A stretch of 64,000 bases of DNA from Chloroflexota bacterium (lineage in GTDB: Bacteria > Chloroflexota > Anaerolineae > DTLA01), in NCBI GenBank assembly GCA_014874485.1, contig JADBJK010000024.1, positions 124,001 through 188,000 on the forward strand, read 5' to 3'. The position numbers were made by a program, and so were the translations under genes. A model generated the notes under the pieces. That model worked only from the letters and a program-made list of their open reading frames with translations, did not search any database and was not told the DNA's origin. Shown piece after piece: positions 38,437-52,132 of this stretch (positions are counted from its first letter, which is position 1; each line of letters starts with the position of its first letter).

Positions 38437-39423
38437 ATGGTGCAGTCGGTTTCGCCAGGGACCATGCTCGGCAACCGATACAAGGTCCTGGAACTCATCG
38501 CCCAGGGCGGCATGGGCGCGGTGTACAAGTGCAGCGACACCCGCCTGGCCGGCCGCCTCTGCGCCGTGAAAGAAACGCGGATTGACCCCACGCTATCCCC
38601 CACGCAACTGAAACAGATGCAGGAGCAGTTCAAGCGCGAAGCGACCACGCTGGCAACCCTGGACCACCCGAACCTCCCGAAGGTCTCCGACTACTTCTCC
38701 GGCGGTGGGCGGCACTATCTCGTCATGGACTACGTGGCGGGCGAGGATTTGCTCTCCTTGCTCAAGAGCCGCCCCGCAGGTCAGCCCGGCCTCCCTGTGG
38801 AGCAAGTGCTGGCGTGGGCAGATCAACTGTGCGCCGCCCTGCACTATCTCCACACCCAGGACCCGCCCATCCTGCACCGCGACATCAAGCCGGCCAACAT
38901 CAAACTGGCGGATTCGGGCCTTGTCAAGTTGGTGGACTTCGGGCTGGTGAAGTGGATGGCCCCCGACGACAATTCCACCATCACGGTCATTCAGGGGTTG
39001 GGGACGCTGGCGTACACGCCGCTGGAGCAATACGGGGGCGATACCGGCCACACCGACCCGCGCACGGATATCTATGCCCTCGGCGCGACCCTGTACCACC
39101 TGCTCACGGGTCAGCCGCCCGTGTCGGCCAAGGAGCGATTCCTCAGGCCCGACCGCTTCGTGCCGCCCCAGCAGATCGTGCCCGATCTTCCGACCCATGT
39201 CGCGGAGGCCATCCTGCGAGCGATGGCCATGCACCCGCAGGACCGCCCGTCCAGCGTCCAGGAGTTCCGGGCCATGCTCCACGGCGAGGATGTCCCTGCG
39301 TCAACCGGCGCAGGCGGGGCCGTCCAAGCAACATGGGCGAGCCTGCTCCGCCAGGACCTGCCGCTGGTCATCCTGGCTGGGCTACTGCTCCTGGCGTCGC
39401 TGTTGGTGTCCCTGGGGTTGTGA
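38437..39423 (+). CDS. Hanks-type serine/threonine protein kinase, tail-anchored
   Basis: 328 residues from ATG 38437. Catalytic elements: glycine loop IAQGGMGAVYK, the ATP Lys in CAVKE, catalytic loop HRDIKPANIK, DFG at VDFGLVKW, and the activation/P+1 segment GTLAYTPLEQYGG; PKN/Stk type. Ends in one hydrophobic helix (LPLVILAGLLLLASLLVSLGL), so it is membrane-bound with the kinase domain inside and almost no external part. No PASTA domains. Convergent with the GH3 gene, sharing 42 bases at their 3' ends (39382-39423). Confidence 0.92.
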   Translation: MVQSVSPGTMLGNRYKVLELIAQGGMGAVYKCSDTRLAGRLCAVKETRIDPTLSPTQLKQMQEQFKREATTLATLDHPNLPKVSDYFSGGGRHYLVMDYVAGEDLLSLLKSRPAGQPGLPVEQVLAWADQLCAALHYLHTQDPPILHRDIKPANIKLADSGLVKLVDFGLVKWMAPDDNSTITVIQGLGTLAYTPLEQYGGDTGHTDPRTDIYALGATLYHLLTGQPPVSAKERFLRPDRFVPPQQIVPDLPTHVAEAILRAMAMHPQDRPSSVQEFRAMLHGEDVPASTGAGGAVQATWASLLRQDLPLVILAGLLLLASLLVSLGL

Positions 39424-42255
39424 AGCAGCGCCGCCAGTGATGCGCCTGAGGGAGCGCGCGGCCCGCGCGATTGCCCGCGGCCAAGCCCAGCCCACGAGCC
39501 CCGTGAGGGTGCACAGCAGGTACGAGAGGATCGCAGGCTGCCAGCGCCAGGGAATGGTCTTCTGCACACCCTCCAGCAGGACCGTGCGCCCCAGAGCCAG
39601 CCCTAGCAGCCCGTAGGCCAGATATCCCACCAGCCCCGCGCAGAATGCGAACAGCGCCGTCTCGGCCGCAAGGGACTTGCCCGCCCGCGGATAGGCCAGC
39701 GCCCCCAGCGCCGTGGACAGCCCGAGCACGCCCGCGACGCTCAGCACAAAAGCCCCGAAATCCAGCGGCCGCGAAGGCGCAAGGGGTGGGGCGCTCTCCC
39801 CCGGGAAGACCGCCGCGGGCGTGGGTTGTGGCGTGGCCGTCGGCGCTGGCGTGGGCACCGTGGTGGAAATCACCGCCGGTTGATCGCCGCGCACCGTAAC
39901 CACCAACTTGGCCGAGCGCACCGCCTGGCCCGCTGCCACGCTAACCTCCACCGTACCCAGGCGCTCCAACCTCAGCCGCACGGTGGCCTTGCCGTTCGTC
40001 GTAGCGCCCACCTCTTGCCAAGCCAGGCGCGACTCCACATCGGAGAACAGGAACGTAACAGGAGTTCCATCGGGGACGATGTTCCCATTCCGATCCACAA
40101 TCGCGCCCGTGGTGAGCACGAGTTCATCGCCCAGGCCCAGGCTCACCTCGCCGCCTGCCTCCCCTGCCTCGCCAACGGGTTCCAGGTATAGCATCTGCTC
40201 CGGAGCCGGTTGCAACCGCTCGGCGAGCCGATACTGCACGGCGGGGACAGAGACGGGCGGCTTGCCCGCGGGCGCGATTTCACCGAACAGTGCCCGCAGC
40301 CCCGCCTCAATTGCAGGCTCCGCGGGGCTGTACAGGGCGTAGTAGGCGCTCACCTTCGCCACGTCGGTGGAATCCAGGTAGTAGGGCGCGCCCAGGGCGA
40401 ACACCACAACCCGCTTGTCGCGCAGCAGCGATGGCTTCTCCCGCAGCAACGTCGTGAGCGGGTGCGCGGCACTCCCGCCGAATGTCTGGCCGCCCTCCAT
40501 CAGGAACAGCACCCAGTCCGCCTCGCCCAGCGCCTCTTGCAGGCGCGTGGCTTCTTCCGCCGCGCTGCCCGCCAGCAACCCCGCCAGGTCGGCAACCGTG
40601 AAGGTTTGCACGCGGGCCATATCCACATGACCGCTGCCCTCCTGCCCATAGAGGCGCTGGAGCAAGCGCAGCGTGGTGCCCGGCATCGGCTGCTGGACCG
40701 GCTCGCAGGCCGCGCATGGCGCAAACGCAGCCACATCCTCCACGATGACCAGGCGGTCGGCAACCGACGGCGGGGCTGGCACCTTCGCCGCCAGTTCCTC
40801 CGGGCGCGGGTACAGCAACGTTACAGCACGGCCCGCGATCTCCGACACTTCCTGCACCCGATCTTCATCACCCTGAGGCAAGGGGACGTCCGGCGCTACC
40901 GCATCCAACGAGAAGCGCGAATACAACCTCAACTTCGCCGCCAGAATCCGCCGCACGCTGGCATCCACCCGGCTCCGGAACGCCGCGTCCGACTGGTACT
41001 TCGCCTGGAAGAAATCCAGCGTCTCGCGCACACCGGCGAAATGCCCCGCCCAGTCGTCCGCCTTTGGCCCGACCGAATCCAGCATGAGCACGTCGTTGCC
41101 GGCCAGGAACGCGTCATACGCCGCCCGCTTCGCCTGGAACCCCTCGGACTTCGGGTCGTAGTACTGCCGGACCGAGCGCGCTCCCAGAGAATCGCTCACC
41201 AGCAAGCCCCCCGCCTCGCGCCACGGTGCCACCTGCGGCAGCGACAGGAAGTAGTAGAGCGCCTGCGGGTCCAGGCTCGTCGGGCGCACCATCAGGGTAC
41301 CTGCGCTGATGCTGTGGAACTGGATATGCGTCGTCAAGATGCCGTCCACGGCGTCATCGGCTTCAGGCGACTCCTGACGCACAAGTGCGGTGAAAGGGAA
41401 GAGGTCAGAGGCCAGGCGGTTTTCCAGCGAGTCCTGGACAACGGGGATCTCACCGTACACATCCCTGTCGGCTGCGCCCAGTCCGGGGAAATGTGTGGCG
41501 ATGCTCAAGACGTGGCCTTCGGAGCCGCCGTGCACCCCGCGCACGTAAGCCCTGCCCAGCCGCGCGACCCAATACGGCGACTCGCCGAAGGTGTTCACGC
41601 CCAAGTCGCCTGCCAGCCCCGCCCGCGCCGGGCTGGCCACATCCAGCGCAGGCCCCAGCAACACATTGACGCCCAGGGCGCGAAGTTGGCGACCCGCCAG
41701 TTGCCCTGCCTTTTCGGCGGCATTCTCATTCCATGTAGCGCCCAAGGCCATGGGACTCAACGGAGGGGCGAATCCAACCCCGGTGCCAACGAGGCTCAAG
41801 TCCGAAGCGTCAACGGCGACGAAAAGCGGGATGGCGATGTGCTCTGCGGCGGCGGGTATGGGGGTTGCCCCCTCGGCGGTGGAAGGAGTCGCCGTGGGCG
41901 TCGCCTCAGCCACGCTCGGGGCCATGCCCGACAGGGCAGCGGTTTGGACAGCGATGACAAACTCGCGCAGGGCTGACGCACTCTCCGGCGACGAGGGCAT
42001 GTTGCCATTCCGCGCGACCAGCACCACGCCACCGATGCGGTAATCCTGCACCAAATCCAGAATCTCGGCCTGGTGGTCGGGCGAAAATCCCACCAGAAAT
42101 AACTGTCCCACCCGCTCGGCCGGCGTCATGCGAGCCAGGAGCGAATCCACGTCGGCAGCCGGCCCCTGTCCGGCGACCAACGCCGGCAAGGCCGTGCCCA
42201 CAAGCGCCAGGCACACCGCGATGGCAAGCGCAAGGCTGCGGGTTCTGCAGCGCAT
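39382..42255 (-). CDS. Glycoside hydrolase family 3-like membrane protein
   Basis: 957 residues. Signal peptide (residues 1-28). The GH3 barrel (about 35-460) shows MTPAERVGQLFLVGF, LGVNVLLGPALDVAS, SIATHFPGLGAADRDVYGEIPV and the presumed nucleophile Asp in GGLLVSDSLGARSV. The family NagZ branch normally has an Asp-x-His dyad after the HFPG block; here the segment reads DRDVYGE, so that His is not evident. A second domain (about 480-680) is GH3-C-like. An Ig-like domain (about 710-800) follows, with a Pro/Thr linker, and three transmembrane helices (about 840-940). An envelope enzyme or a receptor derived from one. Own promoter at 42282-42310. Confidence 0.82.
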   Translation of the reverse strand: MRCRTRSLALAIAVCLALVGTALPALVAGQGPAADVDSLLARMTPAERVGQLFLVGFSPDHQAEILDLVQDYRIGGVVLVARNGNMPSSPESASALREFVIAVQTAALSGMAPSVAEATPTATPSTAEGATPIPAAAEHIAIPLFVAVDASDLSLVGTGVGFAPPLSPMALGATWNENAAEKAGQLAGRQLRALGVNVLLGPALDVASPARAGLAGDLGVNTFGESPYWVARLGRAYVRGVHGGSEGHVLSIATHFPGLGAADRDVYGEIPVVQDSLENRLASDLFPFTALVRQESPEADDAVDGILTTHIQFHSISAGTLMVRPTSLDPQALYYFLSLPQVAPWREAGGLLVSDSLGARSVRQYYDPKSEGFQAKRAAYDAFLAGNDVLMLDSVGPKADDWAGHFAGVRETLDFFQAKYQSDAAFRSRVDASVRRILAAKLRLYSRFSLDAVAPDVPLPQGDEDRVQEVSEIAGRAVTLLYPRPEELAAKVPAPPSVADRLVIVEDVAAFAPCAACEPVQQPMPGTTLRLLQRLYGQEGSGHVDMARVQTFTVADLAGLLAGSAAEEATRLQEALGEADWVLFLMEGGQTFGGSAAHPLTTLLREKPSLLRDKRVVVFALGAPYYLDSTDVAKVSAYYALYSPAEPAIEAGLRALFGEIAPAGKPPVSVPAVQYRLAERLQPAPEQMLYLEPVGEAGEAGGEVSLGLGDELVLTTGAIVDRNGNIVPDGTPVTFLFSDVESRLAWQEVGATTNGKATVRLRLERLGTVEVSVAAGQAVRSAKLVVTVRGDQPAVISTTVPTPAPTATPQPTPAAVFPGESAPPLAPSRPLDFGAFVLSVAGVLGLSTALGALAYPRAGKSLAAETALFAFCAGLVGYLAYGLLGLALGRTVLLEGVQKTIPWRWQPAILSYLLCTLTGLVGWAWPRAIARAARSLRRITGGAASQPQGHQQRRQEQ

Positions 42256-42281: not shown

Positions 42282-42310
42282 AGTATACCCGACGATGCCC
42301 GCTCGGTCAA
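42282..42310 (-). promoter_or_regulatory. Promoter of the GH3 gene
   Basis: Minus-strand TTGACC (42310-42305), 17-base spacer, TATACT (42287-42282). It sits after the terminator at 42340-42367, so the GH3 gene does not depend on the upstream consensus promoter at 42503-42531. Confidence 0.75.
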
Positions 42311-42339
42311 CCGGTGCGACACACCAATGCCCAAAAACG

Positions 42340-42367
42340 AAGGGCGGGGCCGCGTAGCCCCGCCCTT
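42340..42367 (-). terminator. Terminator with T tract (minus strand)
   Basis: 11-bp stem AAGGGCGGGGC (42340-42350) / GCCCCGCCCTT (42357-42367), 6-base loop. On the minus strand it is followed by CGTTTTTGG. It ends the small RNA unit and also the MFS transcript. Confidence 0.88.
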
Positions 42368-42431
42368 TGCGCAAAAGGAGGTAGGAGGAGAGATGAAAAC
42401 GGCCACTGGCGCCGCCTTCACGCAAAAAGAA

Positions 42432-42457
42432 CCGTTGCCCACCCGACGGAGCAACGG
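42432..42457 (-). terminator. Weaker hairpin with T tract (minus strand)
   Basis: CCGTTGC / GCAACGG 7-bp stem (42432-42438, 42451-42457), 12-base loop. On the minus strand it is followed by TTCTTTTTG. May be an internal or first terminator of the small RNA. Confidence 0.5.
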
Positions 42458-42502
42458 CAACAAACCCCGGCCCACGTCTTCGTGGCCCATTCTACTTTGT
42501 GT

Positions 42503-42531
42503 ATTATATCACGATCTGGTCCGGTTGTCAA
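42503..42531 (-). promoter_or_regulatory. Perfect consensus promoter of the small RNA unit
   Basis: Minus-strand TTGACA (42531-42526), exactly 17 bases, TATAAT (42508-42503). The best promoter in the window. The next start codon on this strand is 248 bases away and has its own promoter. Confidence 0.9.
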
Positions 42532-42563: not shown

Positions 42564-44015
42564 CTAACCGGCTCGTTGCCCGCGCTCACGGCCCCTGCGC
42601 GCCGCCCGCCGAACTCGCGCCACCCACGCCCCCGCGGCCCGACGCCCCTCGCGCAGCGCCGCCCGCACCGACGCGCCGCCTGGCTCGTGTACCCACGACA
42701 GTGGAATCTGGGCGCTCCACCGCATGAGGCCGCCTAGCCCGAACAGCACCTGCTCAGGCTCCAGGTGCAGCCCCAGCAGAACCAGTTTGGGCGGAAGGAA
42801 GGCCCCCGACGCCAGCAAGGTCAGCATCATCGCAAAGCCGGAGACTGCACCGAAGATGCCGGAATACATCTGTCGGCGACCCTCTGGCGCGATGGACAGC
42901 ACGAAGTTGGACGCAACAACCCCCGCGCCCGCCCACATGACCCCCGACGTGGCCGCCTCTATGTACAGAAACCCGTGGTTCGCAGGCGTGGCAAACAGCC
43001 ACACCAGCGGGTTGATGCCGCCCATCACGATGGCAATGCGCATCGCCGCCTTGTTGCCGAAACGGTCAATGAACGAGCCCCACGGCCGCAGGGACACCAG
43101 CGCCGCCAGCGTCTGAATCATGCCATAAACCTGGATGGAGATGAGGGACATCCCCAGTTTCTTGATCATGAACGCGCCCCAGAAGGGCCCGCCGATGCCC
43201 ACGGCCAGCATCCACCAGGCCCCGTACAGCAGCAACTTGCAGAAGTTGCTGTCGCGGAACGAGTCGGCAACAGCGTCGCGGAACCGCTCCTGCTCCACGG
43301 CCTTGGGGCGTTCGGGTTGGAGCATCAGAATCCGCGCGCCGACCAGGCCAACCGCCGCCGCAATTGCCATCACCGCGACGAACGCATGGGGCAGATGGGC
43401 GGGCGACAACCACGGGGCATTGCCCAGCGCCGCCGCAACCGCCCGCGCGAATCCGGTGCGCTCCGCGTCAAACGGGTCAAGGAACGCGCTGAACACGTAC
43501 CCCGTTACCAACCCGACCAGCATGAGGTATTGCGAGCGAACGGCGAAGAAGCGCCCGCGCTTCTCCAGGGGAATCAGGTCCGAAATCCAGCCCACCCAGA
43601 TGTTCCCGCCAATCGCCTGCAACGACGTGGCGACGAGAAACAGGCCGAGAAATGCCCACATCGCCATCTGCGACGGCAGGAGGAAGGGCAGCAGGCCATA
43701 CAGGAACGCAACGGCGCGCCCCCATGAGATCAACGCGACCACCATGCGCTTGCGCGAAGTCATGGTGCGGGTGATCGCCGCGCCCAGGGGTTGGAAGACC
43801 TGCGAGACCTGCCCGATCGCCGAGAGGACGCCGAATTGCAGCGGCGTCGCCCCCAGCATCACGGCGAACTTGGTCAGGAACACGCTGCCAGGCGCGGCGA
43901 GCGTGGCGTACACCTGCCAGAACATGCCTTCAATGGTGGAAATCTTGATGACGCGATGGATGTCGGTTCTGTCGTCCATGTATGTCTGTCCGGTCGGGTT
44001 TCTCCACAGGCGCAT
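42564..44015 (-). CDS. Major facilitator superfamily transporter
   Basis: 483 residues from ATG 44015 (GGGAG eight bases upstream); an ATG at 43979 is less well supported. About twelve hydrophobic helices with the MFS inter-helix basic motif after helices 2-3 (TRTMTSRKRMVVAL) and again in the second half (FIDRFGNKAAMR). Loop VGWISDLIPLEKRGRFFAVR is typical of sugar/drug-type MFS proteins in Chloroflexota and Thermotogota. A basic tail of about 40 residues (RAALREGRRAAGAWVARVRRAARRGRERG) is cytoplasmic. The substrate is unknown. Ends in the terminators upstream of the small RNA. Confidence 0.87.
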   Translation of the reverse strand: MRLWRNPTGQTYMDDRTDIHRVIKISTIEGMFWQVYATLAAPGSVFLTKFAVMLGATPLQFGVLSAIGQVSQVFQPLGAAITRTMTSRKRMVVALISWGRAVAFLYGLLPFLLPSQMAMWAFLGLFLVATSLQAIGGNIWVGWISDLIPLEKRGRFFAVRSQYLMLVGLVTGYVFSAFLDPFDAERTGFARAVAAALGNAPWLSPAHLPHAFVAVMAIAAAVGLVGARILMLQPERPKAVEQERFRDAVADSFRDSNFCKLLLYGAWWMLAVGIGGPFWGAFMIKKLGMSLISIQVYGMIQTLAALVSLRPWGSFIDRFGNKAAMRIAIVMGGINPLVWLFATPANHGFLYIEAATSGVMWAGAGVVASNFVLSIAPEGRRQMYSGIFGAVSGFAMMLTLLASGAFLPPKLVLLGLHLEPEQVLFGLGGLMRWSAQIPLSWVHEPGGASVRAALREGRRAAGAWVARVRRAARRGRERGQRAG

Positions 44016-44130: not shown

Positions 44131-44327
44131 GGGTGCATTTCAGTTTGGCGGCAAGGCTGCTGCAGGGCGATAGGTCTGCTTGACCTCACCTATCCCCACC
44201 CCGGCCCTCCCCTTTCCTCTCCGCGGGCGGAGAGGAAAGGGGAGGGTGTGGGAGGGGTTAGGTGAGGCAGATTCCGCTCGCCAACCTAACGATATTCGGT
44301 CATTCCGCCCCAAAATTGAAATGCGCT
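44131..44327. repeat. Palindromic intergenic element, copy B
   Basis: Second copy of the element at 14169-14434. The outer flanks are in the same orientation (GGGGTGCATTTCAG at the left, CCCCAAAATTGAAATGC at the right). The 84-bp core (44184-44267) has its outer arms exchanged: the left arm equals the reverse complement of copy A's right arm, and the right arm that of copy A's left arm. The central CCGCGGGCGG keeps its direction. It occupies much of the gap between the MFS and metalloprotease genes. Confidence 0.8.
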
Positions 44328-51659: not shown

Positions 51660-51705
51660 CGCCTGCCGTCCTCGTACTCTACCACGCGGATTCTTGATAG
51701 TTTAT

Positions 51706-52132
51706 CATTGCGAGGGCGCGCAGCGCCCGAAACAATCCCAGCAGGCTGTCATTCTGAGGCGCGAAGCGCCGAAGAATCTCGCCAACCGAGATGCTTCGCT
51801 TCGCTCGCAATGACAGGTAGAGTTTGTCATTGCGAGGGCGCGCAGCGCCCGAAGCAATCTCCGAGCGTGGGATTGCTTCGCTTCGCTCGCAATGACAGGT
51901 AGAGTTTGTCATTGCGAGGGCGCGCAGCGCCCGAAGCAATCTCCGAGCGTGGGATTGCTTCGCTTCGCTCGCAATGACAGGTAGAGTTTGTCATTGCGAG
52001 GGCGCGCAGCGCCCGAAGCAATCCCAGCAGACTGTCATTCTGAGGCGCGAAGAATCTCGTCAACCGAGATGCTTCGCTCCGCTCAGCATGACAACCGGAG
52101 CGTGGGATTGCTTCGCTTCGCTCGCGATGACA
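51706..52132. repeat. Tandem array of dispersed palindromic repeats
   Basis: About four units, each starting TCATTGCGAGGGCGCGCAGC and ending with TTCGCTCGCAATGACAGG. Two consecutive units, 51826-51907 and 51908-51989, are identical 82-base copies. The first (51706-51825) and last (51990-52132) contain the extra GAGGCGCGAAG...AACCGAGATGCTTCG module known from 14.5 and 31.1 kb. No open reading frame of credible type. It fills the 550-base gap between the EF-G2-like gene and the ammonia-lyase gene. Confidence 0.85.

Follow-up and report, generated by a model that had tools for sequence, protein, structure and literature searches.

Within a 64,000-nucleotide stretch of a Chloroflexota genome (hereafter, the window; contig JADBJK010000024.1), we identified what appears from its sequence to be a well-bounded, lineage-specific small RNA (sRNA) gene candidate on the minus strand, of a known functional kind and with no sequence relation to described families. 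The explanation that we favour, with somewhat better than even confidence, is a lineage-specific, independent sRNA that pairs with Shine-Dalgarno (SD) regions to lower translation; we infer its expression, the activity of its pyrimidine run and the pairing itself. Independent transcription would yield a non-coding RNA of ~165 nt, possibly accompanied by a shorter form ending at the second of its hairpins. The hairpins would leave a C/U-rich segment (UCUCUCCUCCUACCUCCUUUU) exposed and unpaired, and this segment could pair with purine-rich, GGAGG-type SD regions of one or more mRNAs, and such pairing would keep out the 16S rRNA tail and reduce translation.

Promoter, terminators and predicted fold

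The boundaries of the unit (Table 1) are those proposed in an earlier, sequence-only reading of the window, and all of them were confirmed: the promoter hexamers and their spacing match the consensus at 12 of 12 positions, with transcription predicted to start near position 42496 of the minus strand; ~165 nt further on, the unit ends in a hairpin followed by T5; and the downstream GH3-family gene has a separate promoter beyond that terminator. Two promoters were detected in the stretch, compared with 0.1 expected from shuffled sequences, and the 3.74-Mb Anaerolineae-class metagenome-assembled genome (G000) contains 79 perfect (12/12) promoters versus none for the reversed pattern. Given this excess and the fact that two of the 79 precede a 16S rRNA gene, the promoter can be considered a genuine strong type in this genome. 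Terminator-like sites are not enriched in the stretch (2 versus 1.6 expected).

Table 1. Positions of the candidate sRNA, its parts and the adjoining GH3 gene in the window.
Feature	Position	Strand	Basis or details
Promoter	42503..42531	-	TTGACA 42531-42526, 17-nt spacer, TATAAT to 42503; extended -10 (TG-A-TATAAT)
Predicted small RNA, about 165 nt	42332..42496	-	Expected start to terminator
Stem-loop 1 (SL1), GGgCCACG AAGA CGUGGgCC	42469..42488	-	Predicted fold
Stem-loop 2 (SL2) with T-rich tail TTCTTTTT, terminator-like	42424..42458 (hairpin 42458-42431)	-	Terminator scan
Stem-loop 3 (SL3), GUGAAGGCGGC / GCCGUUUUCAU	42393..42421	-	Predicted fold
Single-stranded pyrimidine run CUCUCCUCCUACCUCCUUUU with two CCUCC	42373..42392	-	Predicted fold and sequence
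Stem-loop 4 (SL4) with T5, intrinsic terminator	42333..42367 (hairpin 42367-42340, then CGTTTTT)	-	Terminator scan
GH3 promoter, TTGACC-N17-TATACT	42282..42310	-	Promoter scan
GH3-family gene, downstream neighbour, not part of the RNA	39382..42255	-	PF00933, E 4.7e-30; ATG 42255

The unit was compared across 396 genomes of the class, among which G001 and G002 belong to the same genus as the genome of the window and the others are class-level relatives. The ~165-nt RNA is predicted to fold into four hairpins with an energy of -79.4, versus -67.8 +/- 4.1 for shuffled sequences (z -2.8). Two pairs of SL1 are broken in G001, and the SL2 stem is retained in all three species of the genus, with one compatible change from U-G to C-G in G001. 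SL2 represents a second, internal terminator-like hairpin that the sequence-only reading had overlooked, and, being terminator-like, it allows for RNAs of ~75 as well as ~165 nt. The 12-bp stem of SL4 is nearly invariant among the three species. All pair changes across the three sequences are one-sided, with a few broken pairs and none changed on both sides, so that covariation neither supports nor refutes the structure.

In G001, the conserved block discussed below has its frames displaced by indels of 1 and 2 nt and, because neither strand keeps a frame intact from species to species, the unit is non-coding. An open reading frame (ORF) running from an ATG at 42490 (minus strand) through the RNA was rejected, its ATG being missing in G001 and its frame shifted. 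Its own promoter, an intrinsic terminator and the lack of a conserved ORF are features that the unit shares with trans-acting C/U-rich sRNAs. On the plus strand, the conserved block could also be taken for the beginning of a small protein gene, with its ribosome-binding site (RBS) and initiation codon (AAAAGGAGGTAGGAGGAGAGATGAAAACG). It does resemble an ideal SD followed by ATG and is identical in the three species, but the frame meets a stop after 22 codons in G001, continues without one beyond the promoter in the other two genomes (window and G002), and has accumulated many non-synonymous changes, with the peptide diverging in G002, and the promoter scan found no promoter on the plus strand; we therefore consider this reading highly improbable.

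Conservation and genomic neighbourhood

In both congeners, the unit likewise stands in front of the GH3 gene. It is 78% identical to the window over 287 nt in G001 and 92% identical in G002, and its promoter is retained in both, with 12 of 12 positions matching in G002 and one change (TAGAAT) in G001. Positions 42368-42406, which cover the pyrimidine run, form a block of 39 nt that is identical in the three species except for one T inserted in G001. This block extends from the end of SL3 through the entire run into the bases immediately following on the terminator side, and is the second-longest identical run between the window and G001 (15.8 kb aligned, 80% identity); between the window and G002, the run is included in a 65-nt identical block (42353-42417).

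In each congener, homology with the window reaches no further upstream than 5-6 nt beyond the -35 box (42536/42537). The upstream neighbour is an MFS gene (PF07690, stop at 42564) in the window and a flavodoxin/beta-lactamase-fold gene (flavodiiron/flavodoxin-type) in G001, whereas in G002 the unit is preceded by a contig end with unrelated sequence, and the MFS gene is located on another contig, likewise ending in unrelated sequence. Judging from these contig ends, it looks as though a mobile element has entered G002 immediately before the -35 box of the sRNA. There is no terminator between the MFS gene and the unit, so that MFS transcripts probably run into it, as would be the case if the unit did no more than provide the upstream gene with its 3' UTR and terminator, or were a non-functional spacer. 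We deem this decidedly unlikely: the sRNA promoter is conserved, and the unit stays in place when the upstream gene differs (G001) or is cut off by unrelated sequence (G002). The varying neighbour and the end of homology at the -35 box imply independence from the upstream gene and, with promoter, terminators and run all kept in the congeners, the proposal of a stand-alone non-coding unit is upheld.

The GH3 gene adjoins the unit in all three species, and this association, together with the tandem pair of terminator-like hairpins, would be consistent with a 5' leader or attenuator, in which transcripts begun at the upstream promoter would reach the glycosidase gene by reading through one or two terminators that act conditionally. 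However, a separate GH3 promoter follows the terminator in each of the three species, its hexamers and spacing unchanged in G001 and G002, and GH3 homologues of other families that are not preceded by the unit often carry a promoter of the same type, TTGAC-N17-TATACT (read by eye). Moreover, SL4 is a nearly invariant terminator, and no strong fold competing with it was seen among the predicted folds. A leader function is thus unlikely.

Conservation in relatives, the absence of which the sequence-only reading had named as one refuting result, was found inside the genus; outside it, the unit is absent. Only the three congeners score 172-202 bits with a covariance model run over the 396 genomes; the next-best match has 42 bits, the alignments displayed cover little more than the terminator hairpin, and no comparable unit was detected in the other 393 genomes of the class. 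A 25-mer search of the 396 genomes allowing up to 3 mismatches (<=3) recovered the same three genomes and one stray site with 3 mismatches, and an exact 23-mer scan of one genome per species (about 85,000 species) yielded one contig, JARYMK010000199.1 of Anaerolineae bacterium A05DMB-I-30. Similarly, a related unit was found upstream of GH3 homologues in none of the 23 regions examined outside the genus. As far as the data show, the unit appears to be restricted to its genus. Rfam, including 6S, SRP, tmRNA and RNase P, gave no match in the window at the gathering threshold, in line with the earlier remark that no 6S, SRP or tmRNA signature is visible; under a permissive threshold, the best hit scored 20.2 bits (SorY) against a gathering threshold of 111, which assigns the unit to no family.

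The G002 contig ends at the MFS/sRNA junction (L025:1-75, L059:1-54) have the motifs TGTCACTAA and CTGAACGAG in common. A dispersed palindromic repeat of ~90 bp, on both strands, lies at 44178-44268 of the window; G001 has many copies of it and G002 has some, and a further repeat stretch (51668-52000) has tens of partial copies across the G002 contigs.

The pyrimidine run and its potential targets

The run described in the sequence-only reading, unpaired, containing two CCTCC copies and lying between two hairpins, was recovered: the copies are located at 42388-42384 and 42381-42377, between SL3 and SL4, and the run is mostly unpaired in the predicted ensembles of all three species, at an opening cost of 1.3-3.6 kcal/mol. 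In the ensemble of the window RNA, the ACCUCCUUU half of the run has a probability of only 42% of being unpaired. The sequence ACCUCCUUU (42382-42374) is identical to the 9-mer anti-SD core of the 16S rRNA of the same genome, the 3' end of which reads GGATCACCTCCTTTCT. There is one occurrence of ACCTCCTTT in the window, compared with 0.11 expected, whereas paired nearby CCTCC copies alone are not rare (4 places versus 1.5 expected). In a sample of 304 kb, GGAGG is over-represented at a distance of 5-8 nt ahead of ATG. By prediction, the RNA possesses the unpaired, SD-complementary motif typical of trans-acting C/U-rich sRNAs.

The run is predicted to pair at energies below -12 kcal/mol with 47% of predicted starts and 17% of sites in gene interiors; this is a weak statistic, because composition-shuffled runs reach 39% at starts, nearly equalling the real run, and because SD strength was among the grounds on which the starts had been selected. 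A search for extended complements yielded no start common to the three genomes, the counts being below or near those of a reversed-pattern control. A 19-nt perfect complement of the sRNA covers the RBS and start (AGGAGGAGAGATGAAAACG) of a BrxC/DUF6079-like gene (L021:1-2334, minus strand; E 0.025 for the whole query). It is present only in the genome of the window, among many possible sites, and we treat it as a lead, having not accepted this start as a dedicated target since it is unconserved. The SD of the GH3 gene itself was likewise dismissed as a conserved target: GGAGGG in the window corresponds to GGATGG and GGACGG in the relatives. The mostly unpaired run and its copy of the 16S anti-SD core make the anti-SD mode put forward in the sequence-only reading plausible, though the extended-complement search found no conserved target; we infer the step from SD complementarity to regulation.

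The want of a conserved mRNA target in the extended-complement search of three genomes bears on a further possibility, namely, that the small RNA is real but its C/U-rich run is a protein site, for an RNA chaperone or a decoyed regulator, or has another purpose unrelated to the SD. The exact 39-nt conservation, which enters the adjoining stems and exceeds what SD pairing needs, fits this possibility as well, whereas the literal copy of the 16S anti-SD core and the largely unpaired state predicted for the run speak for pairing with the SD; we regard a protein site as possible, if rather less than probable. It is doubtful that a free RNA carrying the 16S anti-SD core would act as a general translation modulator in the genus, competing with ribosomes for strong SD sites instead of addressing a few specific mRNAs.

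Relation to described RNAs and further short units

C/U-rich motifs of UCCC-type sRNAs block translation initiation by binding to the SD (PMC4132741). The C-rich/UCCC sRNAs of Firmicutes (LhrC in Listeria; RsaE, SprD and RNAIII in Staphylococcus; FsrA in Bacillus) resemble the candidate in being independent and in facing the SD with an unpaired C/U-rich motif, but they come from a different phylum, no sequence relationship was found (no Rfam match), and they expose UCCC in loops, whereas the run described here is CUCCUCC-UA-CCUCC. The Cuckoo RNAs, CcsR1-4, of Rhodobacter and other Alphaproteobacteria are stem-loop RNAs with an anti-SD motif, CCUCCUCCC. These stress-induced sRNAs are processed from the 3' UTR of ccaF1 (PMC8625941, PMC10253847). 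By contrast, the candidate is a single RNA with its own sigma-70-type promoter and terminator and with the motif between stems; the Cuckoo/CcsR arrangement, a processed 3'-UTR RNA downstream of a DUF1127 gene, is not seen, the upstream gene being of the MFS or flavodoxin/beta-lactamase-fold type. With the anti-SD tail of 16S rRNA, the candidate has ACCUCCUUU exactly in common, although it is non-ribosomal and its flanks are unrelated. No trans-acting sRNA described for Chloroflexota was found in the limited open-access literature. The candidate would show that SD-blocking sRNAs also arose in Chloroflexota, independently of the Firmicute and alphaproteobacterial families; its reach is narrow, because the unit is confined to one genus.

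Strong promoters followed by short units were also encountered elsewhere. Promoter look-alikes at two loci of other families (L004 and L006) were not accepted as homologues, the sequence downstream of their strong promoters being unrelated. The latter locus (L006:283-390, G003) combines a near-identical strong promoter with a unit of ~70 nt that ends in a GC hairpin and T5, upstream of a gene resembling the cold-shock type, and is a candidate short RNA. In the genome of the window, a 16S rRNA gene is preceded by a tandem pair of perfect promoters (L101/L102, G000:C53:13829-14060), which are separated by a terminator-like hairpin. Another perfect promoter (L081, G000:C8:28841-28869, minus strand) is followed ~63 nt later by a terminator-like hairpin and then by an ORF with an SD, possibly representing a further short RNA or an attenuator.
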